DNA from: Paenibacillus azoreducens | GTDB taxonomy: Bacteria > Bacillota > Bacilli > Paenibacillales > Paenibacillaceae | Length of the DNA: 64,000 bases | Assembly: GCF_021654775.1 (NCBI RefSeq) | Contig: NZ_AP025343.1 | Location: forward strand, 3,749,501 to 3,813,500 | Direction: 5' to 3' | Shown here: positions 19,501 to 52,241 of the stretch, in pieces | How positions within the stretch are numbered: position 1 is the stretch's first letter | How the letters are laid out: the number at the start of each line of letters is the position of its first letter | Notes under the pieces: generated by a model | Databases searched by the model: none | What the model was told of the DNA's origin: nothing | The model's input: only the letters and a program-made list of their open reading frames with translations | Translations under genes and position numbers: made by a program

Positions 19501-19613
19501 AAGAAAAACGTCTATCGACGTACTTTCTAGGAAGACAGACCGCATTTAGCGGATGTTTTTCTTGCGATTATAGAATTGTTCAGCTTCGCTGAAAATTTAT
19601 AAATTCTATAATC
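19501..19613. repeat. Two-hairpin repeat, copy B
   Basis: 113 bp identical, base for base, to the reverse complement of 52129-52241. AAGAAAAAC (19501-19509) pairs with GTTTTTCTT (19555-19563), enclosing ACGTC/GACGT and CCGC/GCGG hairpins; then GATTATAGAATT (19566-19577) pairs with AATTCTATAATC (19602-19613) around CAGC/GCTG. It lies between the T-box terminator and the acetyltransferase gene. Confidence 0.9.
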
Positions 19614-19622
19614 TTAAAAAAA

Positions 19623-19890
19623 TACAAAAAACTCCATCCCGTAAGGGACGGAGTTTGATCCGCGATACCACCCTAATTGGTGTTTAATAGCAACACCCGC
19701 TTAGTCGCCATCCAGCAATGACGCTCCACAATAACGGTTGGACTCCGTGTCTGCGTACATATTTCGACAGACCTGCTCAGAGGTGACCTCTCGAAATCCG
19801 ATGCCGACTGCTTCACACCAACCAGCAGTTCTCTGTACAGCATATCTGGATCTGAGTATCCTCTTCGCCGCATTTCCTTCCAAAAGTTTC
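19623..19890 (-). promoter_or_regulatory. T-box riboswitch, probably valine-responsive
   Basis: The minus strand carries the canonical T-box AGGGTGGTATCGCGG (19674-19660) followed by a terminator whose arms AAACTCCATCCC (19629-19640) and GGGACGGAGTTT (19645-19656) precede T6. Upstream, Stem I can be folded: AGAGG/CCTCT base, ATGCTG/CGGCAT, the AGAGA bulge and an ACTGC/GCAGT apical stem. The specifier-loop strand reads GAGAGGTCACCTCTGAGC; by alignment with GAA-NNN-ACC in known T-boxes the specifier is GUC (Val), less surely UCA (Ser). Uncharged tRNA binding would allow transcription into the acetyltransferase. No aminoacyl-tRNA synthetase or biosynthetic gene follows. Confidence 0.92.
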
Positions 19891-19896
19891 ATTAAT

Positions 19897-19924
19897 TCTA
19901 TATTCAAGCTGGAACCTCTGTCAA
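19897..19924 (-). promoter_or_regulatory. SigA promoter of the T-box leader
   Basis: On the minus strand TTGACA (19924-19919), 16 nt, TATAGA (19902-19897). Confidence 0.7.
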
Positions 19925-19990
19925 GCATGAATTCATGAACTACAGGAATTTTATTAATCGCGCTAACCCAACCTTTAAAATCAGCTGTTT

Positions 19991-20371
19991 TTAACTTAAT
20001 TGAATTACTCCCCACATGTTCCCATTCGGGTCAAGGAATTTTAGAACCCATCCAAATCCTTCATTTTGAAAAAAGGTAATTTCTACTCCAATTGATTTCA
20101 AGTGATCGTGTAATTTATGTACTTGCTTTGTGTTATAGAGCAAAACCGGCATTGTCTGCCCATTAAATATGAAATTTGCATTTGTATCTTCTTTGGTCTC
20201 CCATAACATCAACATTGGACCTTCTTCTAATGTTAAAAATGCATGATGATGTTCTTCTGACTTACCTGTTAATTGGAAACCGAGGTTCGATACGTACCAA
20301 TTGATTGATTCATTTAGATCTTGGACTGGAATCTGCATGTGTTCTAATTTTGTTAGAAAGTCATTATTCAT
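19991..20371 (-). CDS. VOC (glyoxalase/bleomycin-resistance fold) protein
   Basis: A 126-residue VOC-superfamily protein with two beta-alpha-beta-beta-beta units: HMQIPVQDLNESINWYVSNLGF at the start gives the first metal-site half, and the C-terminal FLDPNGNMWGVIQ the second. Members are metal-dependent lyases, dioxygenases or drug-binding proteins; substrate unknown. ATG 20371 is preceded by AGAAGGAG at 8 nt. It lies downstream of a second VOC gene on the same strand, with 47 bp between them, likely one transcript. Confidence 0.83.
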   Translation of the reverse strand: MNNDFLTKLEHMQIPVQDLNESINWYVSNLGFQLTGKSEEHHHAFLTLEEGPMLMLWETKEDTNANFIFNGQTMPVLLYNTKQVHKLHDHLKSIGVEITFFQNEGFGWVLKFLDPNGNMWGVIQLS

Positions 20372-20418
20372 TCTGCTCACTCCTTCTAGGTTATGAATTC
20401 AAACACTTCTTGTTTACC

Positions 20419-20880
20419 TTATCTGACAAGATTGAATAAATGAGCCTTTACTTTATGCACTTCCTCGGATGTTCGATGCACATTTACGCATTCGTTTACG
20501 TCAAATTTATTACCATCCGGATCGTAAAATACAAAGTTGATTCCACAACTATCGCGATCCTGAAGTTCTTCGATTCTCACATCATTTTTTTTCAGATGGT
20601 CATGCAATACCTCGATCTGCCTCACTTCAAAAGTTAGCCTGAACATTTCATAACCAGCTTTATTGGGGAATTGATTATCAATTGCCCCTACCGTTTCTAC
20701 CAAGTGCAGCCATTGGCCATCAGATAACTTCAATATAGCTTGATCCTCTGCTGCATTATATGGCACCGCGTACTCTAATCCAAAATTACGCTGCCACCAT
20801 TGCGCCGACTTCAACGGATTTCTAACCGGCACGTAAACCGAACAAACTGCCTTTAAAGCATTTCCTTGAATTCCCGACAT
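20419..20880 (-). CDS. VOC-family protein
   Basis: A 153-residue VOC protein: SVYVPVRNPLKSAQWWQRNF near the start and FVFYDPDGNKFDVNE near residue 120 are the two metal-site halves. ATG 20880 is preceded by AAAGG at 9 nt; an ATG nine bases upstream abuts the ribosome binding site. It forms a probable operon with the next VOC gene. Function unknown. Confidence 0.83.
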   Translation of the reverse strand: MSGIQGNALKAVCSVYVPVRNPLKSAQWWQRNFGLEYAVPYNAAEDQAILKLSDGQWLHLVETVGAIDNQFPNKAGYEMFRLTFEVRQIEVLHDHLKKNDVRIEELQDRDSCGINFVFYDPDGNKFDVNECVNVHRTSEEVHKVKAHLFNLVR

Positions 20881-21025
20881 CTCAATCATCCTTTCATTAA
20901 TTGTTTCCTTACATATTAAGAAACGATTATTTCAGCAAAAACCAAACATATTCAAAAAGATTTTTTTGAGACGACACTAAAATAGTTGGAATACCACCTA
21001 GGATACACGCAACACAGCCATCAGA

Positions 21026-21065
21026 ACAAAAAAAGAAGTTCCACCTGACTAGAATGAACTTCTTT
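21026..21065 (-). terminator. Terminator after a GNAT remnant
   Basis: AAAGAAGTTC (21032-21041) pairs with GAACTTCTTT (21056-21065); the minus strand continues in a T tract. Confidence 0.7.
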
Positions 21066-21166
21066 CATTTTAATCGCTTTCTATGAACCAGACGCCGCCG
21101 CTTTATTAAGCTGCTTTACTCTATTTATAACTGGAACGTTGTGTCGATTTTTTTTCTGTGTTCATT

Positions 21167-21372
21167 TTATAGTTCCAACTCCATAAACACATCTGCTCTT
21201 ACATACGGCATTGGCCCGATCTGCTCGACCGGAACGTGCTTGAACCCAACCGATTCGTATAGATAAACGGCGTTCGGCAGCTTGGTGCTACTGCCCAAAA
21301 AGAGCGATTTTGCGCCAAGCTCACGTGCGCGATCAATGGCGGCATGGATGAATGTCCGTCAAATCAGACTGC
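21167..21372 (-). pseudogene. C-terminal fragment of a GNAT acetyltransferase
   Basis: The minus strand encodes TFIHAAIDRARELGAKS followed by LFLGSSTKLPNAVYLYESVG and ends in FMELEL with TAA at 21167. This is the last third of a GNAT protein with the usual LYESVGFK motif. Just upstream is an in-frame TGA and no acetyl-CoA-binding domain, so the N-terminal half is missing. A terminator follows, as it would for a formerly intact gene. Confidence 0.75.
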
Positions 21373-21744
21373 CAGCGAACGGCGCTTTATTTTCCGTAGT
21401 TACTCGTAGTTAACATAACATATATTATGATGAGTTATTTTTATAGCATACGATTTAATTTAAGACACAAATTATGCCAAATGCGCACTTCCTCCACATC
21501 GATTGGATTGGGGGCATTGCGCCGGCATTGGTCAACATGAAGCGGATTCCGATTTTATAGATAAAAGCCTAATGAAATTTTTACTTGAAAGTTCAACTTT
21601 TTCAGTATCCTTCTAATGTGATTTTAATCTTACTATATTACTGTTGTTTTATTCTCACTAAAACGCTTAAAAAAACAGATATGTTTTATAGATTGGGAGA
21701 GAAATAAGGTTGTGGAAAACAACTGCAAAGAAAGGAAAATATGT
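21373..21744. other. Intergenic region without an assigned gene
   Basis: AT-rich DNA between the GNAT remnant and the DUF347 gene. A short plus-strand frame (about 21480-21560) encodes a tail that looks like a degraded protein end, but I cannot place it. It should contain the DUF347 promoter; no clear -35/-10 pair stands out. Confidence 0.4.
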
Positions 21745-22950
21745 ATGGAAGCGAACCAAGACAAATTGAAAATTTTACTTAGCAAAGTACCTGAAGTTAC
21801 TATTTTTTTCTGGATCATTAAGGTTTTATGCACAACTGTAGGAGAAACATTTGCCGATTTCCTCAATTTCAATCTCGGATTTGGTTTGACTCTCACGACA
21901 ATCATCATGGGAATTGCGTTTTTCCTTGTATTGTTTTTTCAGTTTAGAGCAAACAAATATGTTCCAGGCATCTATTGGCTAACGGTTGTGCTTATAAGCG
22001 TATTTGGGACGTTGGTAACTGATAATTTGACAGACAATGTCGGCATACCCCTTGAGACTAGTACAATAGTTTTCTCCGCGTTACTAGGATTAACTTTTCT
22101 TTTTTGGTATCTCAGTGAAAAAACACTCTCGATACACTCGATTTATACGAGAAAAAGAGAAGTTTTCTATTGGCTCACCATTCTTTTCACATTTGCGCTT
22201 GGAACAGCCGTCGGCGATTTATTTTCCGAACAACTCGGTCTAGGTTATCTTCTTACAGGAATAACAGTCGTTATTATAATAGCTTGCGTATTCTTGGCAT
22301 ATAAATTCTTGAAACTGGATGGGATATTAGCGTTTTGGATTGCTTACATTCTTACACGTCCGCTCGGAGCATCATTAGGGGATTACCTATCTCAACCAAC
22401 AAATAATGGCGCGTTAGGTTTGGGGACAACAGTAACGAGTGTCATCTTTCTTATAACTATTTTAGCGATCATTGTTTATCTTGCTGTTACAAAATTTGAT
22501 GCAACGGCGAAAAGCGAAACCGCGGAAACAAACCAGGCAAATGGAAGCAAGAAAAATGTTTTGATGCAAACCGTTGTTGCACTGTGTATTTTCTTAGTTA
22601 CTGGTATAGGCGGTTATGTTGGGCTAAACAATAATATCGCGGCACAGAGCGATTCAACGCAAGCTACATTAGCTGGTCATTTAACAGATTTCGTTAAAAT
22701 TGAAAGTGATATGCTAAACGACGTAAACTCAAATGATTTTGCTTCGGCCAAAAAAGGCGCTGACAATTTGGAACATCAATGGGACACATCTGAGCCTAAA
22801 CTTAGGAAAATAGACGGCAAAACATGGACCCAAATTGATGGAACGATTGACGTGGTATTAGCATCAATTCGTTCAGGAAACCCTGATGCTAACCAAAGTA
22901 AATCTGCACTTAACGATTCGCTCAGTATCTTAAACGGGTCGAATAAATAA
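21745..22950 (+). CDS. DUF347/COG4705 repeat membrane protein with a helical tail
   Basis: A 401-residue integral membrane protein. Its membrane part holds repeats of the DUF347 type, each with a Gly-Asp or Gly-Glu signature: IKVLCTTVGETFADFLN, TFALGTAVGDLFSEQLG and LTRPLGASLGDYLSQP, giving about eight helices. After a linker (about 265-280) one further helix anchors an outer domain of about 100 residues rich in Asp, Asn and Ser. DUF347 proteins are functionally uncharacterised; the tail is not part of the usual family. ATG 21745 follows AAAGGA at 8 nt; an upstream GTG at 21712 lacks one. It is monocistronic, closed by a terminator. Confidence 0.85.
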   Translation: MEANQDKLKILLSKVPEVTIFFWIIKVLCTTVGETFADFLNFNLGFGLTLTTIIMGIAFFLVLFFQFRANKYVPGIYWLTVVLISVFGTLVTDNLTDNVGIPLETSTIVFSALLGLTFLFWYLSEKTLSIHSIYTRKREVFYWLTILFTFALGTAVGDLFSEQLGLGYLLTGITVVIIIACVFLAYKFLKLDGILAFWIAYILTRPLGASLGDYLSQPTNNGALGLGTTVTSVIFLITILAIIVYLAVTKFDATAKSETAETNQANGSKKNVLMQTVVALCIFLVTGIGGYVGLNNNIAAQSDSTQATLAGHLTDFVKIESDMLNDVNSNDFASAKKGADNLEHQWDTSEPKLRKIDGKTWTQIDGTIDVVLASIRSGNPDANQSKSALNDSLSILNGSNK

Positions 22951-22964
22951 GAATGAAAACACAA

Positions 22965-23021
22965 AACCCGCAAGAAGTTCGCTTTTTTCAAAGTGTCCAT
23001 CTTGCGGGTTCATTTATTTTT
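22965..23021 (+). terminator. Terminator of the DUF347 gene
   Basis: AACCCGCAAGA (22965-22975) pairs with TCTTGCGGGTT (23000-23010), followed by a T-rich stretch. Confidence 0.75.
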
Positions 23022-23106
23022 GCAATCAAACGATTAAACTAACTTTTCCGTTACGGATCTCAATACCCTATCCAAACTGCTTATGAACCGCTCCCGTTAA
23101 ATCGCT

Positions 23107-23718
23107 CTATATGTGTGGAACAAGATTTTCAAATGCAAAACCCCATTTACCATCTTGATACTCAATTTTATGTATACTAGTATATGAAGCCGGAAATTTG
23201 ATGCTTTTATTTGTCCACATCAAACCTTTTAAGGTATGGTATATGACATTTATTACCCCACCATGAGTTACGACAATTACATTTTCAGCATGATGTGCAC
23301 TTTCCTGCTCTTTACATAATTTCGAAAACGTCTCACTTATTCGCGTGAAAAACTCAAGCGGGCTTTCTCCCCCAGGGTATCTTTCATCCATCTGTAAGGC
23401 CGAGAAATATAGACCTGGATAGCGTTCATTTACTATTTCGTGAGGCATCCCAGCTATTACGCCGTTGTTGGTTTCTCTCCAACAGTCGCTGCTTTCAACA
23501 GGCAAGTCAATCTCTCTGGCTATCTCGTTTGATGTATCTATAGCGCGTTGCAAATCGCTACTAATGATTCGAGTTATGTTAAAGTCGGTTTGGTTTTCCT
23601 TGAGATAACGGCCAAGCTTCTCCGATTGTCTAAAACCCTCAACTACAAGCCCCCGTTGACTCCAACCACCTCTAAAGCCTTCATCATCTATACCATGCCT
23701 AATAAAATAAATTGACAT
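23107..23718 (-). CDS. Histidine phosphatase family protein
   Basis: A 203-residue phosphoglycerate-mutase-like phosphatase. The catalytic RHG is at 7-9 (FIRHGIDD), the second Arg near 55, and the second His in VVTHGGVINV near 150; phosphate is transferred through the first His. Substrates in this superfamily range from sugar phosphates to phosphoproteins. ATG 23718 is preceded by GGAGG. A second member lies 4 kb away (27181-27789), but they are not close relatives. Confidence 0.85.
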   Translation of the reverse strand: MSIYFIRHGIDDEGFRGGWSQRGLVVEGFRQSEKLGRYLKENQTDFNITRIISSDLQRAIDTSNEIAREIDLPVESSDCWRETNNGVIAGMPHEIVNERYPGLYFSALQMDERYPGGESPLEFFTRISETFSKLCKEQESAHHAENVIVVTHGGVINVIYHTLKGLMWTNKSIKFPASYTSIHKIEYQDGKWGFAFENLVPHI

Positions 23719-23855
23719 TTATCTTCTACCTCCAGAAATATTTTGATTTATTACTTCCATATGCATAAAACAGAGTCGTATCCCCTTAAAATGAATTCTC
23801 CAAGTTATTCTCACGATCCTTCCTTTTTGGTGAGAAAGGGCCTCGTCTGCCTGCA

Positions 23856-23884
23856 AAAAAAGCCGCCAATTGGGCGACTTTTTA
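23856..23884 (-). terminator. Terminator after the sigma/anti-sigma operon
   Basis: AAAAAGCCGCC and GGGCGACTTTTT flank AATT; both strands end in T-rich sequence, so it may work in both directions. Confidence 0.75.
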
Positions 23885-23954
23885 TACATATATGCTCTTA
23901 CTCTATAACGTACCCCTTTTGTCGAATACGATTTGCCGGATTGCAGTATCCTCA

Positions 23955-25022
23955 TTATTGGTTGACTGGTACCGTAAAGATCAATTCTGGTATAATCGTT
24001 ATCTTATCGGTTTCACTAGAATAAAAGTATGGAATGATCTTGATTTTCTTCGGCATCCGCTCAAACGGGTCCATATCCATATTCATTGCAACCATTGTCG
24101 TACCGGGAATGCCGCGTCCAAATGCGCCCCTGGTGGAATCTACCTGATTGCCGTCCTGATCCTCAAGTATATACCACAGCCTGTCCCTCTGTTTAGTGAT
24201 ATCCCGCTTGCTGTAATCCTCATTCATGGTCAGCCGGGTCATGACGGGCGTGATTTCAATCCTTCCGAGAGAGATTTTGAAATCTTTCCATTCCTTTGGC
24301 GGATCGTCCGATGTCACGACCTTTGTCGCCGTTTCATTTTTCTTGACGGGGATATCAAAAACAAACGTATCTTTCTCCATCCCTACCAGGGTAATCTTAA
24401 GATTCAGCATAAATTCATTCGGGAAGCGGTAGGGAGTACCATCCTTGGAGCTATAATCGGAATGGCTGATTGTCACTACTGCTGCCGCAGGAGTGCCTGT
24501 ACGTCCCCAATTTTTCATCGTCCCCTGGGATATGGTCATATCGACACTCTCCCCGTTGACCTTACCTCCGACACTGTAGTTTCGATTGTTAAATTGATGG
24601 TCTATGGTATCCTGTTCCAGCACAAAATAAATGTTTGATCCTGAATAAACGAGCTTAGGTATCCGCAGCGTTACCCCATGATGAGTTACGCTCACATTGG
24701 GCTCATCCATCATGCCTTTCTCGTCGGCGGTTTGCAAACCGATGTAATGGGTTAGTTCAAACAGATCCTGGAAGAAAGGAATCCCCTTTAGCGATTTGGC
24801 CATTGCCGGCGAAACAAACGCTGAACCCAACAGAGCTAAGCAAAGCACTAAAACGGCGGCAGCCGAGCCATAAATATACATCCACTTGCTTTTCCTTTTA
24901 ACGGTTAAGGACGGCAATTCACGAAATGCCTCAGCCATCCGCTCATTTACAATCTCCGGTAGCTCGTCCGGAACTGATGCACGGCGATCCAACAACTTCA
25001 TTTCAATATCATTTAGATTCAT
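23955..25022 (-). CDS. DUF4179-type membrane anti-sigma factor
   Basis: A 355-residue single-pass protein: a cytoplasmic N-terminus of about 45 residues, a membrane helix (about 48-72), then an extracytoplasmic part with a DUF4179 domain near 90-200 and a second beta domain of DUF5643 type. Such proteins are encoded directly after ECF sigma factors and hold them inactive until a cell-envelope signal arrives. The gene overlaps the sigma gene by 14 bp, consistent with coupled translation. The anti-sigma role is inferred from context. Confidence 0.82.
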   Translation of the reverse strand: MNLNDIEMKLLDRRASVPDELPEIVNERMAEAFRELPSLTVKRKSKWMYIYGSAAAVLVLCLALLGSAFVSPAMAKSLKGIPFFQDLFELTHYIGLQTADEKGMMDEPNVSVTHHGVTLRIPKLVYSGSNIYFVLEQDTIDHQFNNRNYSVGGKVNGESVDMTISQGTMKNWGRTGTPAAAVVTISHSDYSSKDGTPYRFPNEFMLNLKITLVGMEKDTFVFDIPVKKNETATKVVTSDDPPKEWKDFKISLGRIEITPVMTRLTMNEDYSKRDITKQRDRLWYILEDQDGNQVDSTRGAFGRGIPGTTMVAMNMDMDPFERMPKKIKIIPYFYSSETDKITIIPELIFTVPVNQ

Positions 25023-25548
25023 GCGCTACCTTCCTTTCCGGGGTATCGCCCAGTATTTGAAGCAGCTGCCGGCGTGCCCTGAACAGTCGCCCTTTGACTG
25101 CATTTTCCGTTATTCCGAGCAGTTCAGCTACAGCCAGCAATGGCATATCCTGAAAATAAAATAGCTGAATGACAATTTGCTGCTGCTCCTCAAGCTGCTC
25201 AACAGCATCCCGTATATCGACTGCATCGTAATCGGTTGGTGGTCTCGGTTTATCTATTTCATCCAAATTGTCCACTGGGACCAATCGTTTTTTATTTCTT
25301 AACACCTGATGACATTCGTTTATTAAAATACGGAATATCCAGGTATTAAAAAACTCCGGCTTTCTCAGCGTATGCAGCGATTTGTACGCCTTGAGAATCG
25401 TCTCCTGTATGGCATCCGCACAATCTTCGTCTCTGCCGAGAATCGAAAAAGCCAGCCCGTACATCTTCAGCTTGATCTCAAGTACAAGCCGGATAAATGC
25501 TTCATGATCCCCCTTCTTTGCTTTTTTCACCTCTTGTTTTACATTCAC
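25009..25548 (-). CDS. ECF RNA polymerase sigma factor
   Basis: A 179-residue ECF sigma factor. Region 2 spans about 20-90 (DADQET-like segment reads EDCADAIQETILKAYKS, then FFNTWIFRILINEC), and region 4 about 115-170 (LEEQQQIVIQLFYFQDMPLL, then the HTH VAELLGITENAVKGRLFRARRQL). It redirects RNA polymerase to its own promoters, most likely including the sequence at 25602-25628. The start lies behind GGAGCAGAGAAGA. Confidence 0.9.
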   Translation of the reverse strand: MNVKQEVKKAKKGDHEAFIRLVLEIKLKMYGLAFSILGRDEDCADAIQETILKAYKSLHTLRKPEFFNTWIFRILINECHQVLRNKKRLVPVDNLDEIDKPRPPTDYDAVDIRDAVEQLEEQQQIVIQLFYFQDMPLLAVAELLGITENAVKGRLFRARRQLLQILGDTPERKVAHESK

Positions 25549-25601
25549 TCTTCTCTGCTCCTTTAACCGTATTCAGGTGTCATAGTAAATCAGCCGCTTT
25601 T

Positions 25602-25628
25602 TAGATACATGAGGGGGCCCAAAGGTTT
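25602..25628 (-). promoter_or_regulatory. Candidate autoregulatory ECF promoter
   Basis: On the minus strand AAACCTTT (25628-25621) and GTATCTA (25608-25602), with 16 nt between AAC and GTA, resembles ECF promoters (AAC motif and a GTA/GTC -10). It lies 54 bp before the sigma gene. Confidence 0.4.
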
Positions 25629-25672
25629 TAAACGAATTTAAAAATTTTCTGAAACTCAATTTGTCACCCGAA

Positions 25673-25693
25673 AAAAGCCGCCAATCAGGCGAC
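25673..25693 (-). terminator. Terminator of the HD/CHAP gene
   Basis: On the minus strand AAGTCGCC pairs with GGCGGCTT around TGATT, then TTTTTT. Confidence 0.75.
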
Positions 25694-25775
25694 TTCTCAT
25701 GTATATCCGTTCTTGTCCTCGGACATATTTAGTGCCATACGTTATACGCATTGGCCCTTTGTTTTTTAAGCGGCT

Positions 25776-26873
25776 TCACTCAACTAAAAAATCGGATTGT
25801 AAGTAACCATTAAAGTTAAATTGGTAATCATTGTCTATGCGGATATATCCAAGAATGCAATGATACCGCTTTCTGCGAAACACACTAGAGTAGTTCATAT
25901 TGTCTCGGTTACCTTCTGCAACTAAAATTTCCTTTTCATCACAAGCTAGTATAATCCCGATATGATCATGAGAGTTTTCGGATAAAAGCTTTTCATAGAT
26001 GACGATGTCACCTCGCTGCGGCGAAAAGCCTTCCTGCCCATCAATATGGAAAAATCCCGTTTCAGGTAGCCGGGCCCACTCTAACCATGCGCCAACTCCA
26101 GCAAATCGATAGATGCCATTCGGATATCGAATTGGCAATAAAATTCCGGCTTGTCTGCAACAGTGGTAGACAAATGCTGCGCACCAGCTGCCTCTGAGTA
26201 TTTTATATATACCGGTATCTGGCCAATACATGCAGATTTCCCGATACTGCTCGTCTCCCGGTATACCGATAATGTTTTTCCCCGCGAGCGCTTCCGATAT
26301 ATCGGCCAATTTACGACGTCTATCGCCAGTATCTTCGGGTATCGATGCTTTATCTATTCTTGACACTTCAAATTCACATGGAATTGCCAATTCGTCTAAC
26401 ACATTTTGAAGTCTGTGTGCATCTAAATGGTATGTTTGACTGCCAGTAGTCTGAAAGAACATCTGAAGCACAATGGCATCCTTAATGATTTCTTCATACG
26501 GTCCATGAATTTGCTTTCTGTCATCCTGATAAAATATTGCCTGAAGGATGATCATCCGCTCTTCATTCGAAAAAATCTTGATATCTCTTATTAATGGCCT
26601 CACCGCCTCTGAACTGTTGGGACCAGGAAATTCAGCAATTCCGGTTTTATAGAAATAATAATGGTGAAGCAATCCCGCGATTGCAGCGAGTTCTGAATTT
26701 TGTCCTCTCTTCATAGCAAGCATCGATGCAAAAGTTGATACCCCGTAAAGATAAACACAGGCATTTGATTTTTCAACTGAGCTGTCCATTGTTTGTAGCA
26801 TTTCATTAACAAGTACTCGAATACTTTCGATCCGTGAAGTCACACAATACTCCATATTTCTAAAACAAATCAT
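25776..26873 (-). CDS. Fusion of a degenerate HD domain and a CHAP-type amidase domain
   Basis: A 365-residue protein without signal peptide. Residues 35-140 match HD-domain proteins of Bacilli, but the metal ligands are altered: LLHH at 68-71 where LLHD is usual, YQDD at 115-118 for YHSD, and KDAI at 131-134 for KDAD. Residues 205-345 form a CHAP/NlpC-P60-like cysteine peptidase with C231 (GSWCAAFVYHCC), H304 (HDHIGIIL) and GDIVIYEK. CHAP domains cut peptidoglycan cross-bridges or glutathionylspermidine. With no export signal a cell-wall role is doubtful. ATG 26873 follows GGGGAGG at 7 nt. Function unknown. Confidence 0.75.
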   Translation of the reverse strand: MICFRNMEYCVTSRIESIRVLVNEMLQTMDSSVEKSNACVYLYGVSTFASMLAMKRGQNSELAAIAGLLHHYYFYKTGIAEFPGPNSSEAVRPLIRDIKIFSNEERMIILQAIFYQDDRKQIHGPYEEIIKDAIVLQMFFQTTGSQTYHLDAHRLQNVLDELAIPCEFEVSRIDKASIPEDTGDRRRKLADISEALAGKNIIGIPGDEQYREICMYWPDTGIYKILRGSWCAAFVYHCCRQAGILLPIRYPNGIYRFAGVGAWLEWARLPETGFFHIDGQEGFSPQRGDIVIYEKLLSENSHDHIGIILACDEKEILVAEGNRDNMNYSSVFRRKRYHCILGYIRIDNDYQFNFNGYLQSDFLVE

Positions 26874-26938
26874 GACTTACCTCCCCTGTGATTCCAAGTT
26901 TATTGGTTTGACATACATAGACGTTAGATACCCAATAA

Positions 26939-26967
26939 TTTACGGAAAATACTGGAGAAAATATAGA
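26939..26967 (+). promoter_or_regulatory. SigA-like promoter of a short transcript
   Basis: TTTACG (26939-26944), 17 nt, TATAGA (26962-26967). It points to the short ORF and terminator at 26999-27092. Confidence 0.4.
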
Positions 26968-26998
26968 CTTATAATTTTCTAGCGATTATAATAATATT

Positions 26999-27061: not shown

Positions 27062-27092
27062 AACTGCAATGCTCTAGGCATTGCAGTTTTTT
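27059..27092 (+). terminator. Bidirectional terminator
   Basis: AAACTGCAATGC pairs with GCATTGCAGTTT and runs into T6 on the plus strand; the minus strand also has a T tract and would end the phosphatase gene at 27181. Confidence 0.8.
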
Positions 27093-44613: not shown

Positions 44614-44820
44614 GTTTCATCACCTCACTTTCTGATATTCTATTAAATGCCGGTAAGTTGTATTTTGTAATAGATAAGTAACGCTTCGTTTGAAAAATCC
44701 ACTTGTAACATAGTTACACCACTCAAATGAGGAATGAGTTGGTACTTGAAGGTTGAAATGACAGAGCCATTCTCATAACCACAAGAAAATAGCGACGATC
44801 ATATAACGGTCTTTTCAAGA

Positions 44821-44853
44821 AAAAAATCAGCCCTATAAAAGGACTGATTTTTT
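44821..44853 (-). terminator. Terminator of the methyltransferase gene
   Basis: AAAATCAG and CTGATTTT arms enclose CCC/GG pairs around TATAAAA; T-rich on both strands, right after the stop codon. Confidence 0.8.
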
Positions 44854-44856
44854 AGT

Positions 44857-45465: not shown

Positions 45466-45691
45466 TCCGATTCCTCCCGAATGCTTATTTAACTTTCATG
45501 TTACCAATCAGCAATAGAGAAACAATGATTTGAAGCAGCCAGATCTGATAATCAAAAATAGTAATACTAGTAATTATTACCATATTATATAATAACACTG
45601 AATTTCTATTATGTAAAATAATGGTTTTCGAGCGAGTTGTTATGCACAAAGGAAGTCAATTTTCTACCAATCTCGCAGTCGCAATGTAGAC

Positions 45692-45720
45692 GAAAAAGTG
45701 ACCCCCTCATCGAAGTCACT
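45692..45720 (-). terminator. Terminator of the two-component operon
   Basis: AGTGAC (45698-45703) pairs with GTCACT (45715-45720); the minus strand continues in TTTTTC. Confidence 0.65.
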
Positions 45721-45928
45721 CTCTCTTTCCTTGCCGTCGTTTGAACTGAACGATTCGATAAATTGTATAGATGACCACCCCAATTACCGCCATCCAAATG
45801 CAAACGGATTTGAAAACGCTCCATCCACCCGAAGAAGAATTGTTTGGATAGTATAAAGCAGACACGGTTAAACACATCAACCCGATGACGATAAAGCACG
45901 CGGCAATTAGCCAGTCAACTTTTCTCAT
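45716..45928 (-). CDS. Small two-helix membrane protein in the kinase operon
   Basis: A 70-residue protein beginning MRKVDWLIAACFIVIGLMCL, with two membrane helices (about 5-25 and 37-58) and a basic C-terminal tail. ATG 45928 follows GGAGGAAAAAG and overlaps the end of the kinase gene by 14 bp, so it is co-translated. Small membrane proteins of this kind can modulate a sensor kinase; here that is only a guess. Confidence 0.75.
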   Translation of the reverse strand: MRKVDWLIAACFIVIGLMCLTVSALYYPNNSSSGGWSVFKSVCIWMAVIGVVIYTIYRIVQFKRRQGKRE

Positions 45929-47330
45929 CTTTTTCCTCCTGCATGGTCGGGAGTGTGAATGTAACCGTAAAGCGCGTACCAATCTCCCTCTTGCTGCTTA
46001 CTTGAATCGTCCCTCCTTGCAGCTCCACCAATTTCTTCACGATGGATAACCCTAGGCCTGTACCACCCGTTTTCCGCGATCTTGACTTCTCTACCCGATA
46101 GAAGCGATCAAAAATATATGGCAGCTCATCCTCAGGGATCCCAATCCCCGTGTCCTCTATCGAAAATAAGAGTGAGTCAGGAGTGCTCCGGAGATGGATT
46201 TCAATCCTTCCGTCTTCGGTATAACGAACCGCATTCTCCAACAGGTTGAGTACAATTTGTTCCATGCGCATCCTATCGCCACGGATTAATGGTACAGATG
46301 CGACAGGATGGACGATGAGTTCGATTCCTTTCTCCTTTGCTTTTAACGAAACCATTCTTACAGCTTGCTTTATCACATCCTTCAAGTCCACCCGCTCCAT
46401 GGATAGACTGATTTGTCCCTCCTCCATCTTCGCAAGTTCAAATAGATCATCGACCAGGTGTTGGATCCGTACACCTTCTTGATAAATAATATCCAGATAG
46501 TGCTCCTTTTCTTCCTCCGTTTCATATAAACGGTTTTTCAAGACCTTTGCATAACCTTCCAAGTAAGTGATTGGAGTTCTCAGCTCATGGGAGATATGAG
46601 CGAAAAATTCCTGCCTCGTATCTCGAAATCTTTGCAGATCGGAAGCCAAGTTATTAATGGCCGCTGCCAGATCACCAATCTCGTCTTTGGTATGGATATC
46701 TAATCGAGTTTCCAGTTCCCCGATAGCGATTTTCTTCGTCGCTTTTTGCACCATAATGAGAGGTCGCGAAAATACCAGTGCCATAATCCATGTGATTCCA
46801 ATAGCGAGTAAGAAAGCCCCGACACCTGAAAGGAGTATAAGATTTCGCACTGTAATAAGAGACTTATCCATGCTTTGCATGGAGGCCATCACATAAATAG
46901 CAGAAGAAATCCGACTATCTTGATAGATCGGTTGGCCAATGACCATATAACGATTGCCTAACGGATCTTCGTGTTCCAAATGGATGGACTTCCCGGAAAA
47001 AATTTGCTGTATATCCTCTGTCCGAATAAAAGACCGATCCGCTGCGTTATGTCCGCCTGAATGAAAGGTGATCTCACCTGATGCGTTAATATAGAACATA
47101 CTTACATTCGAAAAATCCGCAAATGTCAGTATCATTTCTTCCATCGACGACTCCGTTGTCTCCGCCATTGCCCTGAAATGAGAGGTCATCTCGGTGACCT
47201 CCTTTCTCATCTCGGCATGATAGAAGTTGGAAAACATTTGATACAAGCTCAAGCCCAGAAAAAGGAGAACGATAAAAACGATCGAAGCAATGACGAGTCC
47301 GAGTCTCATCCCAATCCTATTCCGGCTCAT
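45915..47330 (-). CDS. Sensor histidine kinase (OmpR-type partner)
   Basis: A 471-residue kinase: membrane helices near 10-32 and 167-187 flank an extracellular sensor, then HAMP (about 190-240), HisKA with FFAHISHELRTPITYLEG, and HATPase (NLLENAVRYT, DTGIGIPED, GTGLGLSIV). It overlaps the regulator gene by 4 bp. The kinase itself looks complete, but its cognate regulator lacks its N-terminus and the operon may be disabled. Confidence 0.9.
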   Translation of the reverse strand: MSRNRIGMRLGLVIASIVFIVLLFLGLSLYQMFSNFYHAEMRKEVTEMTSHFRAMAETTESSMEEMILTFADFSNVSMFYINASGEITFHSGGHNAADRSFIRTEDIQQIFSGKSIHLEHEDPLGNRYMVIGQPIYQDSRISSAIYVMASMQSMDKSLITVRNLILLSGVGAFLLAIGITWIMALVFSRPLIMVQKATKKIAIGELETRLDIHTKDEIGDLAAAINNLASDLQRFRDTRQEFFAHISHELRTPITYLEGYAKVLKNRLYETEEEKEHYLDIIYQEGVRIQHLVDDLFELAKMEEGQISLSMERVDLKDVIKQAVRMVSLKAKEKGIELIVHPVASVPLIRGDRMRMEQIVLNLLENAVRYTEDGRIEIHLRSTPDSLLFSIEDTGIGIPEDELPYIFDRFYRVEKSRSRKTGGTGLGLSIVKKLVELQGGTIQVSSKREIGTRFTVTFTLPTMQEEKDEKS

Positions 47331-47911
47331 CGATCTCCTCCGTCTGGCGAGAATTTATAACCCACACCCCATACCGTTTGTATCGGATCATAACCTAGTC
47401 CAGCGCGTTGTAACTTTTCTCGAATATTTTTGATATGGGTATCCACGACACGGGCATCGCCCATATATTCATACCCCCATAATCTTTCAATCAGTTCTTC
47501 CCGCGAAAAAGTGCGTTGACTATGCTTACCCAGATAGAGCAGTAAATCAAACTCTTTAGGCGTGAAATCAACGACCTCCCCGTGAATGTGAATTTCACGA
47601 GCTTCTGCATTTATTTGGAGATTATGCAATGTTATTGTCGATCCTTGAACCGTGTGCGCTTGATTAAGCATAGAGCGTCTCAATAACGAAAAGACACGTG
47701 CCAATAACTCTTCAGGTTCAAATGGTTTCGTTAAATAATCATCGGCTCCGATCCCCAGTCCATGGACTTTATCTTTGGTTTCAGATCGAGCCGTAAGCAT
47801 CAAAATCGGTATCATTTCCGTTTCTCGAATGGCTTTGCAAACCTGCCAACCATCCATGCCTGGCATCATCACATCCAATATCAGAAGATCAAACGAATGA
47901 CATCCATTCAT
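47327..47911 (-). CDS. OmpR-family response regulator lacking its N-terminus
   Basis: A 194-residue product that begins inside the receiver, just before the phospho-acceptor (LLILDVMMPG, Asp13). The first 40-45 residues, which hold beta-1 and the conserved acidic pair, are absent. The remaining receiver (TKPFEPEELLA) and the winged-helix domain (FSREELIERLWGYEYMGDA, VVDTHIKNIREKL) are intact. The start ATG 47911 lies inside the end of a truncated multicopper oxidase gene and has no Shine-Dalgarno, so any expression would depend on coupling. Without the acidic pair, phosphorylation should fail. Confidence 0.85.
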   Translation of the reverse strand: MNGCHSFDLLILDVMMPGMDGWQVCKAIRETEMIPILMLTARSETKDKVHGLGIGADDYLTKPFEPEELLARVFSLLRRSMLNQAHTVQGSTITLHNLQINAEAREIHIHGEVVDFTPKEFDLLLYLGKHSQRTFSREELIERLWGYEYMGDARVVDTHIKNIREKLQRAGLGYDPIQTVWGVGYKFSPDGGDR

Positions 47912-48509
47912 CTAATACAAGGGTGTAATCACGATCGTAGCTATCATTCGGATCTTCCACAATCAGAGCACCGTAGAGGCCTTTATCAAGTTGATTGACA
48001 CTATCTTGGTGCGAATGGTACCAATAGGTACCTGGAATGCTGGCTTTAAACTCATACGTGAAAGTTTTGCCCGGAACAACAGCATCTTGTGTAACGCCCG
48101 GAATCCCATCCATCTCATTCGGTACAGGGTAACCGTGCCAATGAATGGAAACGGGTTCTTCGAGCTCATTTTTTAGTTTGATCTTAACCGTTTCTCCAAC
48201 TTTAACGCGAATCTCTGGACCTGGAACAGAATTATTGAATGTCCATACAGGCAGAGTCTTATCCTTGGATACCTTCAAATTGCTCGCTTGTGCGGTAATG
48301 GTATATTCCTTGCCATCTACCCTTGTTGTTTCATCCGTGAAGATGCTGCCCGTATTATTCGAACTCTGTGTCTGGATGCTATCCACGTTCATTTTGGAAT
48401 GATCCATTCCCTTCATCATATCTAAATCATTAGAATTAGCACAGCCAGCTATTATGATGCTAACTATACCAATTGCAAGGAATATTTTTAATTTGCTCTT
48501 ACTCTTCAT
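47889..48509 (-). CDS. Truncated multicopper oxidase lipoprotein
   Basis: A 206-residue fragment of a multicopper oxidase that usually has about 500 residues. It has a signal peptide with lipobox IIAGC (Cys23), a Met/His-rich stretch (MMKGMDHSKM), and the first cupredoxin domain with two of the copper motifs: HWHGYPVP (123-130) and WYHSHQD (163-169). It ends six residues after LVLDE, just as the second domain should begin, so the type 1 copper site and two of four copper motifs are missing. Its last 23 bp are shared with the start of the response regulator gene. ATG 48509 follows GGAGG at 7 nt. Not expected to oxidise copper. Confidence 0.87.
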   Translation of the reverse strand: MKSKSKLKIFLAIGIVSIIIAGCANSNDLDMMKGMDHSKMNVDSIQTQSSNNTGSIFTDETTRVDGKEYTITAQASNLKVSKDKTLPVWTFNNSVPGPEIRVKVGETVKIKLKNELEEPVSIHWHGYPVPNEMDGIPGVTQDAVVPGKTFTYEFKASIPGTYWYHSHQDSVNQLDKGLYGALIVEDPNDSYDRDYTLVLDEWMSFV

Positions 48510-48611
48510 CACACAACCTCCACTTCATATTCTGATATTTCATACTGTAACCAGAAATTATGTGGAAACGATGGAGAAATTGAAATTTTAAATATCGGAA
48601 TTCTATGCAAA

Positions 48612-48654
48612 TAAAAATCTCATCCCCAAGACTTTTGTCTTAGGGACGAGATTT
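48612..48654 (-). terminator. Terminator of the GNAT gene
   Basis: AAATCTCATCCCCAAGAC pairs with GTCTTAGGGACGAGATTT (48637-48654) in an 18-bp stem, with T5 on the minus strand. Confidence 0.8.
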
Positions 48655-48792
48655 ATGCTCGTGATAACTTGGAAACATCCAGATGCGCCGATGTCACCAA
48701 ATCGACGCTACATATCATCTAAAAGGGCACCGCCCAAAAAAAGTAAGGATGCGCTGTCTAAAGTCATCCTCCACCGGTTATAATGCTGCCCG

Positions 48793-49350
48793 TCATTTCG
48801 ATAGACGATATACCAGTTCCATGCTGGCGAAGGAGTCTTCACTATGCTCCCGGTCGCCGCTGACCTTCATAGCCTCCTTGAATCCGCAGCCGATCCAGAA
48901 ACGGAGAGCTCCCCAATTTTTGAGATCGACCGCCGCTCTTACGGTTTCATAAGAAAGCTTGGCGGCAAGCGAGATAATTCCGTTAACGAGTTCCTTTCCG
49001 TACCCTTGGCCGCGCCAAGATGGATCGACGGCGAACAGCCCGATGTACAGATCGCGTTCTCCAGGGTAGCCTTGGTAAAGCTCGAAAAAAGCGGAAGGGT
49101 CGGCATCCGACCCGCTTGCCCGATGAGCGGCGTGCTGAAACACTACCCGATCCGGGCTTCCGCCCGGAGGAAGCCCAGGGGTACCGTTTAAAATATTGGA
49201 AATATAGAGCGGGTTGAGAGACTGTCCGGTCCATTTGGGCAGCGGGGCGGATCTTTCATACAGGTCCTGAAGGGTCTTTTCCTCCGCATACTGCAGCATT
49301 CGAATAACGCATCGATCTGTCTCCCAGTTCATAGGCCATTGCGGCATCAT
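48793..49350 (-). CDS. GNAT N-acetyltransferase
   Basis: A 185-residue GNAT protein: LFAVDPSWRGQGYGKELV near residue 105-122 is the acetyl-CoA loop, then GALRFWIGCGFKEAMKV. Substrate unknown. ATG 49350 follows AAAGGAG at 9 nt; an upstream in-frame ATG is before the ribosome binding site. A remarkable 19-bp inverted repeat lies 24 bp upstream and probably controls it. Confidence 0.82.
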   Translation of the reverse strand: MMPQWPMNWETDRCVIRMLQYAEEKTLQDLYERSAPLPKWTGQSLNPLYISNILNGTPGLPPGGSPDRVVFQHAAHRASGSDADPSAFFELYQGYPGERDLYIGLFAVDPSWRGQGYGKELVNGIISLAAKLSYETVRAAVDLKNWGALRFWIGCGFKEAMKVSGDREHSEDSFASMELVYRLSK

Positions 49351-49373
49351 ATTCTCTTTCTCCTTTAGCATCA

Positions 49374-49417
49374 AAACTACAATCTAATTAGACATATATC
49401 TAATTAGATTGTAGTTT
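49374..49417. promoter_or_regulatory. 19-bp perfect inverted repeat, likely double operator
   Basis: The arms 49374-49392 and 49399-49417 are exactly complementary around CATATA. Each arm contains the self-complementary TCTAATTAGA (49383-49392 and 49399-49408), so two 10-bp palindromes lie 16 bp apart, centre to centre. The location directly before the GNAT ribosome binding site suggests repressor control. Confidence 0.65.
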
Positions 49418-49556
49418 AATCAGTTAAATTTGGCAAGGAGGATCAATCAGTTTAAGAATACGATTCTGAAAGTAACTCCATTTCAAGAAATTGACTTTCC
49501 ACCACTCAAACCCTCCATGGACCCTTAATATCCATAATTAAAATACAAGAAGCATA

Positions 49557-50042
49557 TCACTTCTTGTTTACGGCATGCCTGCAATCTTTGGAAGCCGCAT
49601 CCAACACCGACTGGATCGTATGCTCCCTCAAGTATTGATACAAATGCTGTTCGGCACCATCCATTACTCTTTTAACCAAACATTCGCTTTGTCCGTGACA
49701 ATCCCGATCCGTTTGCGAAGCTTTTTCTTCAGCCAACATCCGATGCTGCTGCGAATTCAAATTCGAGCATTCGAACAGCTGCTGCCTGCCTTCGATCACC
49801 TGAATTACATCAAGAAATGTAATCTGCTCGGCTGGCCAAGCAAGCTCATAACCGCCATTCACTCCTGGTACTGCGCGTACGATTCCATCCTGTCTCAGCT
49901 TGGACATAATTTTGGATAAGTAGCTTTCTGAAACGCCAAGTGCTGCAGCTAGTTCCTTGATACCAACATTTTGACGATGCTCCGAGTGAGCCAAATGAAT
50001 TAAGGCGTGCAGGGCGTAATCGGTGCTTTTGGAGAACTGCAT
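49557..50042 (-). CDS. Rrf2-family regulator with three Fe-S-type cysteines
   Basis: A 161-residue Rrf2 protein with a winged helix at about 1-75 (GIKELAAALGVSESYLSKIM, GVNGGYELA) and Cys92, Cys115 and Cys121, arranged like the [2Fe-2S] ligands of NsrR and IscR, with wider spacing between the first two. It probably senses nitric oxide, iron-sulphur status or redox state. The start follows AAGAAGGAAGCAAAC. A palindrome near its promoter suggests autoregulation. No clear target operon is adjacent. Confidence 0.85.
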   Translation of the reverse strand: MQFSKSTDYALHALIHLAHSEHRQNVGIKELAAALGVSESYLSKIMSKLRQDGIVRAVPGVNGGYELAWPAEQITFLDVIQVIEGRQQLFECSNLNSQQHRMLAEEKASQTDRDCHGQSECLVKRVMDGAEQHLYQYLREHTIQSVLDAASKDCRHAVNKK

Positions 50043-50078
50043 GTTTGCTTCCTTCTTTCATAAAAGTTTGTTTACATC

Positions 50079-50103
50079 GTAGATCTGTGAAGTCTACATT
50101 ATA
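50079..50103 (-). promoter_or_regulatory. Promoter region and operator of the Rrf2 gene
   Basis: On the minus strand the -10 TATAAT (50103-50098) is followed directly by the palindrome GTAGA-N9-TCTAC (50079-50097). The -35 is weak. Confidence 0.5.
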
Positions 50104-50178
50104 ACCGATCTGCTTCACTTTTCATAATTCAATAATTCCCTGGGCATCTTTGTTTTCGTTATTGTGCTTTGATGTTCG

Positions 50179-50649
50179 TTATAAAGTTTTAATATACCAT
50201 GCATCGCAAGCAAAATGTTCCGTTGCATTTAAAGGTTTTTCTAATGGCATGAATCCGTTCTTTTTATAGAACTTGTTCGCCGCGACCATATTATTAAAAG
50301 TTTCCAGGTAACATTTTTTATAATGTTTTTTGGCAAAATCCAGGGCTAACCTAAGTAACTCGCTTGAAATTCCTGTGCCGCGCGCTTCTTTTAAAGCATA
50401 CATCTTTTGCAGTTCACAAATATCCGGTATGCCCTCTACGGGTCCGATACCACAACCAGCGACTATTTTTGCATTTTCCTCAACAACCCAATATTTAGAG
50501 CCCTCGGATTTATACAGATTATAGAAATCTCCTAAGTTCGGATCAGTCCACGCGGTTCCCGGCTTATTCGCCCCAAATTCTATCAAACAGGTTCTAATCA
50601 GATCCTCAACTTGCTTATTATCCTTTTCTTCTATCTCTCTTATTAGCAT
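50179..50649 (-). CDS. GNAT N-acetyltransferase
   Basis: A 156-residue GNAT protein: LIREIEEKDNKQVEDLIR at the start, then LQKMYALKEARGTGISSELL near 90-110 for the acetyl-CoA loop and NKFYKKNGFMPL. Similar proteins acetylate small amines. ATG 50649 follows GGAGGG at 7 nt; the frame continues 10 codons further upstream without a ribosome binding site. Confidence 0.83.
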   Translation of the reverse strand: MLIREIEEKDNKQVEDLIRTCLIEFGANKPGTAWTDPNLGDFYNLYKSEGSKYWVVEENAKIVAGCGIGPVEGIPDICELQKMYALKEARGTGISSELLRLALDFAKKHYKKCYLETFNNMVAANKFYKKNGFMPLEKPLNATEHFACDAWYIKTL

Positions 50650-50971
50650 GTAGTAACCCTCCACATACGCAATCTTCAAAGAGTGCTTTTTTCGAAGTTT
50701 TTTCTTCTATCTCCCGAAAATAGGCATTCTGTTCTCTCGAAAACGGATATCCGCCTATAATATGCAACACATATGAAAATACAGTAGAACCATAGACACG
50801 TCAATAAAACTGATAAATGAGATACCGGGTTGTCTTTAAGAAATGAGCCTTTCGCCGCAGAACGAAAATAAAGGAATATGCGAAATGCCAGCGAAAGAAT
50901 AACCATCCGTATATGACATCTCATGATCGCCACCTGGAAGGATGCCACAATAAATTCAGGAGGGAATGAGC
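50650..50971. other. Region without a supported gene
   Basis: Between divergent genes. A minus-strand open frame exists (50676-50948) but has no ribosome binding site or recognisable domain. It should hold the promoters of the GNAT and secreted-protein genes. Confidence 0.35.
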
Positions 50972-52054
50972 ATGAAAAAATCGAAATCGCTGCTTCACAT
51001 TGGGCTGATGGGCGCCCTGCTTCTTACCGGATCGGCCACGGCGCTTGCTGACGAAGCGGAACTTGTACCGATCGAATCGCTGAAACCCGCTGTTCCGATG
51101 GTCAAGCCGATACTGACAGGAACCGGCGGGTCCCTGATTCTGAGCGATTCCCCGGAATCTCCGAAAACGGAAGGTGCATATTACCGGGATTCGGTAACGG
51201 GATCGTTCCGGGTGTTCTGGCATCATCAAAATATGACTGGCGAGCCCCTGACCGTCGCGGTTGCCGTGACCAATGAATCCGACGAGCCCGTCATGCTGTT
51301 CTCTAATGGAATCGGACTGGCGACCGACTACTATCCGGATATCGCCGGACAGGTGGCGCTGGCCGATTTCATGAGCAATCATGCGGCCCAGAAGAAGGAA
51401 GCAATTCTGCAGCCTGGCGAAAGTTATTACCTGACCGCACTCACGGAAAATACGTATACCGCAAGCGGCATCGCGAATTTTACAGCTTATACGCAAAAAG
51501 GACATCGGGACGCCATGGTGACGGTAACGACGCTCGGCTACAAAGAGCAACCTGCCAATCCGCTCGACGTGCCGGTTCTGACGAAAGATATGCACGTACG
51601 CGGTACCTTCCCGCATGCAGACCGGACGGGTACGCTTGAGTACAATACGTCCAGCGGCAACTCGCTGATCCGCATTTCCTCTGCTGCCGCCGGCCCATGG
51701 AGCGACAGCATGCCGGGCGAATATGAGGAAGGTTGGAACGCGGTTGACGGCGGTGCCGTTATCAACAACGGGAACTATGGCGTAATGTACCACCTGAACG
51801 TGACCATTAATAACGAAGAGAACGTGAAGCGAGTCATTTCGGTGTACGACAACCCTTCCGGCGGCGCGGGCCACTATGTGATCCGCTGGGGCAAGGATCT
51901 GTTCCGGTCTCCGTTCGTGAATTACCAGATGGCTTGGAAATTTACACAGTTTACGGTCAACAAGAAAGGCAAAACCGTAGCGGCCGAGCTGAGCTTGACC
52001 GGCGGTGCCGCTGGACCGCAGACGCTTTATTTTACCAACAGTGATGTGAAATAG
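50972..52054 (+). CDS. Secreted beta-rich protein, unknown
   Basis: A 360-residue exported protein with a signal peptide (about 1-27, cleavage near ALA-DEAEL), followed by beta-strand-rich sequence with no membrane helix. A hydrophobic, Gly/Ser-rich sandwich pattern repeats in the first and second halves (VAVAVTNESDEPVMLF, YHLNVTINNEENVKRVI), suggesting two immunoglobulin-like domains. No catalytic motif or family is recognised. ATG 50972 has AGGAGGGA 7 nt upstream. Monocistronic; the terminator is followed at once by repeat copy C. Confidence 0.75.
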   Translation: MKKSKSLLHIGLMGALLLTGSATALADEAELVPIESLKPAVPMVKPILTGTGGSLILSDSPESPKTEGAYYRDSVTGSFRVFWHHQNMTGEPLTVAVAVTNESDEPVMLFSNGIGLATDYYPDIAGQVALADFMSNHAAQKKEAILQPGESYYLTALTENTYTASGIANFTAYTQKGHRDAMVTVTTLGYKEQPANPLDVPVLTKDMHVRGTFPHADRTGTLEYNTSSGNSLIRISSAAAGPWSDSMPGEYEEGWNAVDGGAVINNGNYGVMYHLNVTINNEENVKRVISVYDNPSGGAGHYVIRWGKDLFRSPFVNYQMAWKFTQFTVNKKGKTVAAELSLTGGAAGPQTLYFTNSDVK

Positions 52055-52080
52055 TACGATATATGATCTATACGATATTA

Positions 52081-52126
52081 AAAACTGTTCTTTCCAGGTC
52101 TGAGCGCGGAACTAGGACAGTTTTTT
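52081..52126 (+). terminator. Terminator of the secreted-protein gene
   Basis: AAAACTGTTCT (52081-52091) pairs with AGGACAGTTTT (52114-52124) with one wobble pair, then T tract that abuts repeat copy C. Confidence 0.75.
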
Positions 52127-52128
52127 AA

Positions 52129-52241
52129 GATTATAGAATTTATAAATTTTCAGCGAAGCTGAACAATTCTATAATCGCAAGAAAAACATCCGCTAAATGC
52201 GGTCTGTCTTCCTAGAAAGTACGTCGATAGACGTTTTTCTT
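52129..52241. repeat. Two-hairpin repeat, copy C (inverted)
   Basis: 113 bp identical to the reverse complement of 19501-19613. It begins two bases after the terminator T tract of the plus-strand gene. A further hairpin, TCAAGGGGGCT with AGCCCCCTTTGA (52264-52305), lies next to it and probably belongs to the DUF4272 gene. Confidence 0.9.

Follow-up and report, generated by a model that had tools for sequence, protein, structure and literature searches.

Why does one short non-coding repeat stand three times, in the same orientation, behind the T-tract of a terminator? The question is raised by a 64,000-nucleotide stretch of the Paenibacillus azoreducens genome (NZ_AP025343.1, positions 3,749,501 to 3,813,500; the window), in which an earlier note described copies A, B and C of a two-hairpin repeat and proposed either a recently spread non-autonomous mobile element or an RNA element. 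We found that the repeat is real and mobile. We think it probable that it is a transposase-free miniature element moved as single-stranded DNA in the manner of IS200/IS605 insertion sequences (IS), with a Y1-type transposase supplied in trans as the most likely mover.

Copies B and C are identical over the full 115-bp element, and also over 123 positions when the adjoining T-tract is included (E 8.2e-59). The identity reported earlier therefore holds, the length then given (113 bp) being off by a base or two. Copy A is older, with 82.4% identity to B across 124 positions. At all three copies a hairpin precedes the T-tract (-17.9, -20.8 and -13.7 kcal/mol for A, B and C), and the element lies on the T-tract strand in each case: A on the minus strand like a 346-amino-acid (aa) open reading frame (ORF), B on the minus strand like a T-box leader, and C on the plus strand like a 362-aa ORF. 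The placement and shared orientation that had been noticed from the letters were thus correct.

To examine mobility, the joined flanks of eight copies from P. cellulositrophicus KACC 16577 (G051) were searched in P. rhizosphaerae CECT 5831 (G005) and in other carriers. Empty sites, to which the earlier note had pointed, were found: seven of the eight sites are without the element in G005 and one is common to both genomes. At L204 and L212 the joined flanks match G005 exactly across the junction (for example ...GCTGTTTA/TGCCCGG, the slash marking the junction), those of L203 and L205 are of equal length with some substitutions, and L206, L208 and L211 are empty in G005 with diverged junctions. 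Neither target duplication nor deletion was seen at the four clear junctions (L203, L204, L205 and L212). The L203 site is uninterrupted in the outgroups P. dokdonensis (G042) and G045, and the L206 site in P. chibensis (G047), and so the element was gained in the G051 line at these two sites. One site has a tandem pair in G051 where G005 has a single copy, and G051 copies are up to 99.1% alike. Joining the flanks also restores Pfam domains over the junction, namely an AraC-type helix-turn-helix, DUF5360 (P. azoreducens) and EamA (G051). Three of the insertions examined interrupt genes, the one in the AraC-type gene being antisense.

The repeat is abundant in its home genome, that of P. azoreducens (7,316,152 bp, one contig). 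With a profile model built on 45 diverse copies, 60 stretches of 20 kb placed at even intervals (1.2 Mb in all) yielded 51 copies at E 0.01 or better, which extrapolates to about 310 copies genome-wide. When the model was run on the home genome, at least 150 copies were found, all with E 2.3e-14 or better (150 of 2600 candidates scored), and BLAST gave at least 63 matches (40 of 343 candidates scored). The 45 full copies compared comprise 28 distinct sequences, of which the most frequent occurs nine times. Together with the empty sites these counts bear out the proposal that the repeat is a non-autonomous mobile element that has spread recently. In other copies the 3′ part is retained and hairpin 1 is a different one (GATATAAG with CTTATATC, GATATCAG with CTGATATC, and others).

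Outside P. azoreducens, BLAST matches were present in 23 of the 61 genomes of a draw from the genus, and the model matched 153 of 296 genomes drawn from the order, covering 22 of 48 genera. In a draw from the class it matched 16 of 200 genomes, four of these outside the order. Carriers include P. lautus (G234) as well as the four Paenibacillus species named above. A single plasmid record holds the element, the P. cellulositrophicus megaplasmid, in 10 places; the element pattern was missing from the viral contigs searched, with zero phage matches. Same-looking sites with matching flanks recur across several species of genus g2 (L329, L331, L332, L335 and L341), as does a second same-site set in that genus (L323, L324, L327, L336 and L339), suggesting that these shared sites may be long-kept insertions. 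We also observed a larger composite element, with ends GTTCAAAAAG..CTTTTTGAAC, that has a variant of the repeat in its 3′ part (L125, L135, L140, L156, L157 and L161; for example L157:8440-8750). Both ends are present in six of the seven places viewed, and the one composite element scanned had no Rfam match.

The boundaries of the element are AGATTATAG...TTTTTCTTA. Along the T-tract strand the flank TTTTTTTA is followed by hairpin 1 (AGATTATAG..CTATAATC), GC, the proposed guide AAGAAAAAC and AT, then by hairpin 2 (CCGC-TAAAT-GCGG), TCTGTCTTCCTAGAAAGT, hairpin 3 (ACGTC-GATA-GACGT) and TTTTCTTA, after which the flank resumes with T. In DNA folding both strands beat all 200 shuffles (z -4.8 and -5.3), and the hairpins inside the element are conserved. 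RNAalifold on a MAFFT alignment recovered only 8 pairs, the hairpin-1 arms being misaligned, and hairpin 1 was tested separately. Its arms covary: over 97 distinct arm pairs, drawn from 246 distinct sequences after leaving aside those with no recognisable guide, a mean of 7.3 of 8 positions is paired against 5.7 when shuffled (maximum 6.06 in 2000 shuffles).

The target is T(T/A)TTT(T/G)A^, with T usually the next base. A matrix of 40 flanks before the element gave T 39, T 31 or A 7, T 38, T 34, T 40, T 29 or G 11, and A 37, and the base at +1 after the element is T in 31 of 38 cases; these counts leave aside partial copies and most tandem copies and include tandem copy 2881653. The right end TTTTTCTTA shares this form. 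Head-to-tail arrays, seven copies at 6234857-6235664 and five near 2545816, abut exactly at right end and left end, and some arrays combine different hairpin-1 types. The element therefore inserts seamlessly 3′ of a T-tract that closes with an A, preferably where a T follows, and its right end mimics the target. Because the T-tract lies on one strand, the element takes a fixed orientation to the transcribed gene.

We then compared insertions with intergenic control T-sites selected with the same target matrix. In the home genome 19 of 39 own insertions lie behind a hairpin, compared with 103 of 381 controls (cut -8 kcal/mol, p 0.009); without tandem copy 2881653 the count is 18 of 38 (p 0.014). 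The figures for other species are 69 of 100 against 66 of 212 (p 5e-10), in a test that omits loci with absolute GC skew below 0.03 or shorter than 6 kb and apparent tandem copies, recognised by a pattern, and in which some species-shared sites remain. Terminators are thus preferred about two-fold and not required, and about half of the own insertions tested are without a detectable hairpin. Of the suggestion that the repeat targets the T-tracts of terminators, the T-tracts stand; terminators account for only part, since hairpin-free and in-gene insertions exist.

Insertions are also oriented with respect to replication. GC skew changes sign at 3.34-3.46 Mb and 7.12-7.24 Mb, from which the terminus (3.41 Mb) and origin (7.19 Mb) were placed by eye; gene calls followed a simple ORF rule. 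The T-tract is on the lagging-strand template in 97 of 117 insertion events, which rest on the 150 scored of 2600 candidates plus copy A. The corresponding count is 697 of 1022 for called genes (p 0.0009) and 213 of 381 for intergenic T-sites. Among hairpin-free own insertions, 18 of 20 are with replication against 133 of 278 controls (p 0.0003). Those lying 3′ of a same-strand gene give 11 of 11 against 59 of 105 (p 0.003) and those in other contexts 7 of 9 against 74 of 173 (p 0.08). Stratified by gene context the bias has p 0.0005, or 0.0002 with other species added. When replication direction is taken from local GC skew, 32 of the 42 own events agree. Other species give 56 of 75, and another set, which partly overlaps that one (P. 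lautus loci), gives 30 of 36; in genome G145 the count is 10 of 10. In the home genome there is, away from hairpins, a strong bias of the T-tract to the lagging-strand template.

These features can be joined in one mechanism. The folded strand would be cut in two places, directly behind the T-tract and behind the right end, and the internal A-rich guide AAGAAAAAC would pair with both, and so choose the cut and the target. The single-stranded circle would be pasted behind another T-tract exposed at replication forks or terminator hairpins. The orientation data would reflect targeting of single strands at forks, and terminator hairpins would provide a second, inferred route. Since the right end is itself a target, new copies would be expected to land behind old ones. 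The enzyme, most likely of Y1 type, would act in trans and be present only intermittently. If so, the terminator association is a target preference and not a sign of RNA function.

The guide complements the right end and comes close to complementing the T-tracts. Among variant cores (stretches whose core pattern fell outside the main family) the two variable positions show complementarity in 13 of 15 cases, compared with 3.8 expected. Five of the 13 belong to one lineage (CC/GG) and five have the usual AC/GT, and independent pairing support comes from CC/GG, GC/GC (two) and AT/AT, plus one CA/TG in the main class. In the main class 20 of 137 guide/end pairs are non-complementary. Guide-to-end pairing is thus suggestive. 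A sister core, CTAATGA-GGATTCGACGACATC-TCGA, is swapped for the main core at L067, L068, L063 and L302, with hairpin 1, guide and right end unchanged.

We looked for the mover around the three copies, in the home genome and in other carriers. The listed ORFs of 100 aa or more that lie up to about 1-2 kb from each copy were inspected by eye and no transposase was seen, which upholds the earlier statement that none lies nearby for that neighbourhood; the whole window was unscreened. Of the five Y1_Tnp genes in the home genome, two are IS200-like and the other three belong to a different type. No transposase sharing the element's ends was found in the loci examined, including 64 Y1 loci, at one of which an IS200 copy merely has the element inserted behind it. 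Nor did a gene-bearing autonomous parent appear when the window and 1.2 Mb of the home genome were searched locally with the profile, at loci in relatives that match only the left or only the right end, or at the 64 Y1 loci; these searches yielded truncated copies, other-core variants and IS110-bearing copies.

Thirteen of the 18 Y1 loci inspected by eye are IS200-type, four of them being one IS in one genome. These elements of the genus and family likewise stand directly behind a terminator hairpin and T-tract, and they have an A-rich stretch before a hairpin (L049, L050, L186, L189, L195, L197, L356, L357, L361, L365, L373, L377 and L378). Genomes G000 and G145 have very uniform element copies, and their Y1 proteins are 79% identical to each other. 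In G145 a lone intact Y1 gene with no visible IS ends (L355, G145:C1:1768377-1768733) encodes a protein 79% identical to the home IS200 transposase, and it is a candidate domesticated mover.

Several results weigh against movement by a Y1 enzyme, or against the single-strand mechanism as drawn. The element's ends are in none of the 64 Y1 loci. A Y1_Tnp match is missing in seven of the nine main carriers (those with at least 15 matches in the genus draw: G000, G004, G005, G010, G019, G042, G045, G047 and G051) and in five of 15 further carriers, although G051 has insertions that postdate its split from G005. Conversely, some genomes rich in Y1 (for example G027, G033 and G007) give no match to the element. 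Hairpins 2 and 3 are dissimilar, whereas typical IS200/IS605 ends are alike. In the main family guide/end pairing is not above shuffles (p 0.097; six doubly changed pairs). Behind hairpins we found no extra replication bias, either for own insertions (15 of 19 against 80 of 103, p 1.0) or in other species (56 of 69 against 57 of 66). The hairpin-free bias in other species is weak and depends on the cut: 16 of 24 against 69 of 128 at -6 (p 0.27), 22 of 31 against 75 of 146 at -8 (p 0.05) and 28 of 37 against 82 of 155 at -10 (p 0.016).

Other known enzymes fare no better in the nine main carriers, where Y2_Tnp is missing in all nine, Transposase_20 in five and RVT_1 in two; genomes without RVT_1 are G005, G045 and G006. 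IS110, reverse transcriptase and Y2 were rejected as movers because their presence in carriers is inconsistent. The alternative that survives best is nevertheless a single-strand element of the same anatomy moved by a non-Y1 enzyme, for example a host protein present in all carriers. The Y1_Tnp-free carriers favour it, as do G051 insertions that are missing from G005 and the outgroups and copies as alike as 99.1%. It has no candidate among the families just named, and seamless T-tract insertion with a +1 preference is the behaviour of Y1 elements; we therefore hold it to be possible but unlikely. We are marginally more doubtful still of the wider proposal that these are order-wide protein-free single-strand elements in which the repeat's own nine-base guide picks the T-tract and a host or unrecognised non-Y1 enzyme does the moving.

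A structured RNA element, selected in transcript 3′ ends or leaders and spread only incidentally, would account for the stable folds, the covarying hairpin 1, the position behind terminators and the same-site copies shared between species. The recent seamless insertions, some within genes and one antisense in the AraC-type gene, argue against it. Copies also lie downstream of a terminator, where transcription should mostly have ended, and the Rfam scan of the window gave the neighbouring T-box as its sole match, with weak, unrelated matches only in scanned loci elsewhere. Copy B itself lies between the T-box terminator and the GNAT start codon (19474-19641, minus strand) and is thus inside a leader, not at a 3′ end. 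The data can be explained without any role at transcript 3′ ends, and we regard the RNA explanation as improbable. The last hairpin of copy B, with its T-run, could form a second terminator in the T-box/GNAT leader.

Group IIC introns insert behind terminators, and a relic or satellite of such group II introns would share the T-tract and terminator preference, the seamless insertion and the lagging-strand bias. Yet the element is only 115 bp, no scanned locus gave a corresponding Rfam match, and RVT_1 is missing from the three genomes named above, which makes this origin very improbable. We give as little credence to a satellite of IS110-type elements with an RNA guide choosing the T-tract. 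One IS110 type does occupy the same hairpin-1 place in all six of its near-identical home-genome copies, but Transposase_20 is missing in most of the main carriers, and since the IS110 ends are unlike those of the repeat, IS110 more likely uses the repeat as a target. This element (PF01548 + PF02371, about 1.56 kb) is inserted within hairpin 1, ATAAG/ACTTCC .. CAGGGC/AGAAAGTATAA, near 166115, 647268, 797411, 855755, 2495602 and 4924148 (L116:14818-16374, L160:5907-7463, L273, L308, L310 and L311; each copy viewed from at least one side). A classical miniature inverted-repeat transposable element (MITE) that relies on a DDE transposase, or the duplication of some larger block, would fit the small size and high copy number and can be set aside: the clear junctions have no target duplication, the element has no terminal inverted repeats, the B and C flanks are unrelated so that no larger duplicated block explains the copies, and the empty sites refute both; the MITE-like label and the single ancestral duplication considered in the earlier note go with them.

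Features of the window, with positions counted from its first letter.
Feature	Position	Strand	Basis
Copy A, 82% like B	11557..11671	-	sequence comparison
T-tract and terminator-like hairpin before copy A, behind the 346-aa ORF	11672..11711	-	-17.9 kcal/mol
346-aa ORF, read as a hydrolase in the earlier note	11777-12817	-	
GNAT acetyltransferase gene directly downstream of copy B	18929..19474	-	ATG at 19474
Copy B	19500..19614	-	sequence comparison
Right end of copy B, TTTTCTTA; reads TTTTTCTTA with the preceding T; target mimic	19500..19507	-	
Hairpin 3 of copy B, ACGTC-GATA-GACGT	19508..19521	-	fold
Hairpin 2 of copy B, CCGC-TAAAT-GCGG	19540..19552	-	fold
Proposed guide AAGAAAAAC in copy B	19555..19563	-	complementary to right end and T-tracts
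Hairpin 1 of copy B, GATTATAGAATT...AATTCTATAATC	19566..19613	-	arms covary across family
Target T-tract remaining in flank of copy B	19615..19623	-	
T-box leader, terminator hairpin in front of copy B	19641..19877	-	Rfam RF00230, 120.7 bits
362-aa ORF upstream of copy C	50966-52054	+	
Terminator-like hairpin and T-tract before copy C, behind the 362-aa ORF	52081..52127	+	-13.7 kcal/mol
Copy C, identical to B	52128..52242	+	sequence comparison

No description of this repeat family was found in the open-licence literature. The EFAR repeats of Enterococcus faecalis are miniature elements of about 170 bp with two hairpins, inserted at stem-loop targets, whose mover is unknown; EFAR insertion removes part of the target stem-loop. 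The two-hairpin, stem-loop-targeted form is similar, whereas the target of our repeat stays intact. Likenesses are also offered by the PATEs of Haloquadratum walsbyi, described in PMC3119063 as IS605-related and transposase-free. Like PATEs, the repeat is short, has no inverted repeats, makes no target duplication, bears near-terminal palindromes, and has palindromes that serve other elements as targets, here IS110 (PMC3119063). Unlike PATEs, whose ends resemble those of IS605-type transposons (PMC3119063), it has no such parent that we could find, and it targets T-tracts that end in A, with enrichment at terminators.

As with IS608 and ISDra2 (PMC6006769, PMC5934647), the cut would fall 3′ to a short target kept in the left flank, the right end resembles that target, the proposed guide stands beside a hairpin and, for hairpin-free insertions of the home genome, the lagging-strand template is favoured; the preference for T at +1 is comparable to the +1 preference of both (PMC5934647). 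The repeat differs in having no gene, a proposed guide of nine bases rather than four, dissimilar hairpins 2 and 3, and no matching transposase that we found. Repetitive extragenic palindromes (REP) and REPINs are also high-copy palindromic intergenic repeats and are tied to Y1 enzymes (PMC6006769). The canonical features of REP and its transposase RAYT were not seen, contrary to the earlier suggestion of a REP-like element: the family consensus has no GT[AG]G at the hairpin foot (as defined in PMC6006769), the repeat keeps one fixed orientation to the T-tract, is 115 bp long and had no linked RAYT gene that we could find. No Y1 locus examined shares its ends, its end hairpins are not alike and most main carriers have no Y1_Tnp match; for these reasons we do not file the repeat as a member of IS200/IS605; it works like a miniature element of that group without being classed as one.

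The repeat thus represents a large family (153 of 296 genomes of the order) that inserts where genes end, in one case, copy B, inside a T-box leader. PATEs show strain-specific insertions where IS200-type transposase genes are broken, and the spread of such elements without an intact Y1 gene was already a noted puzzle for Haloquadratum (PMC3119063). With this family one can ask in a natural setting whether genomes that have no recognisable Y1 gene still allow miniature single-strand elements to spread, and the proposed pairing of guide and target is open to simple swap tests.

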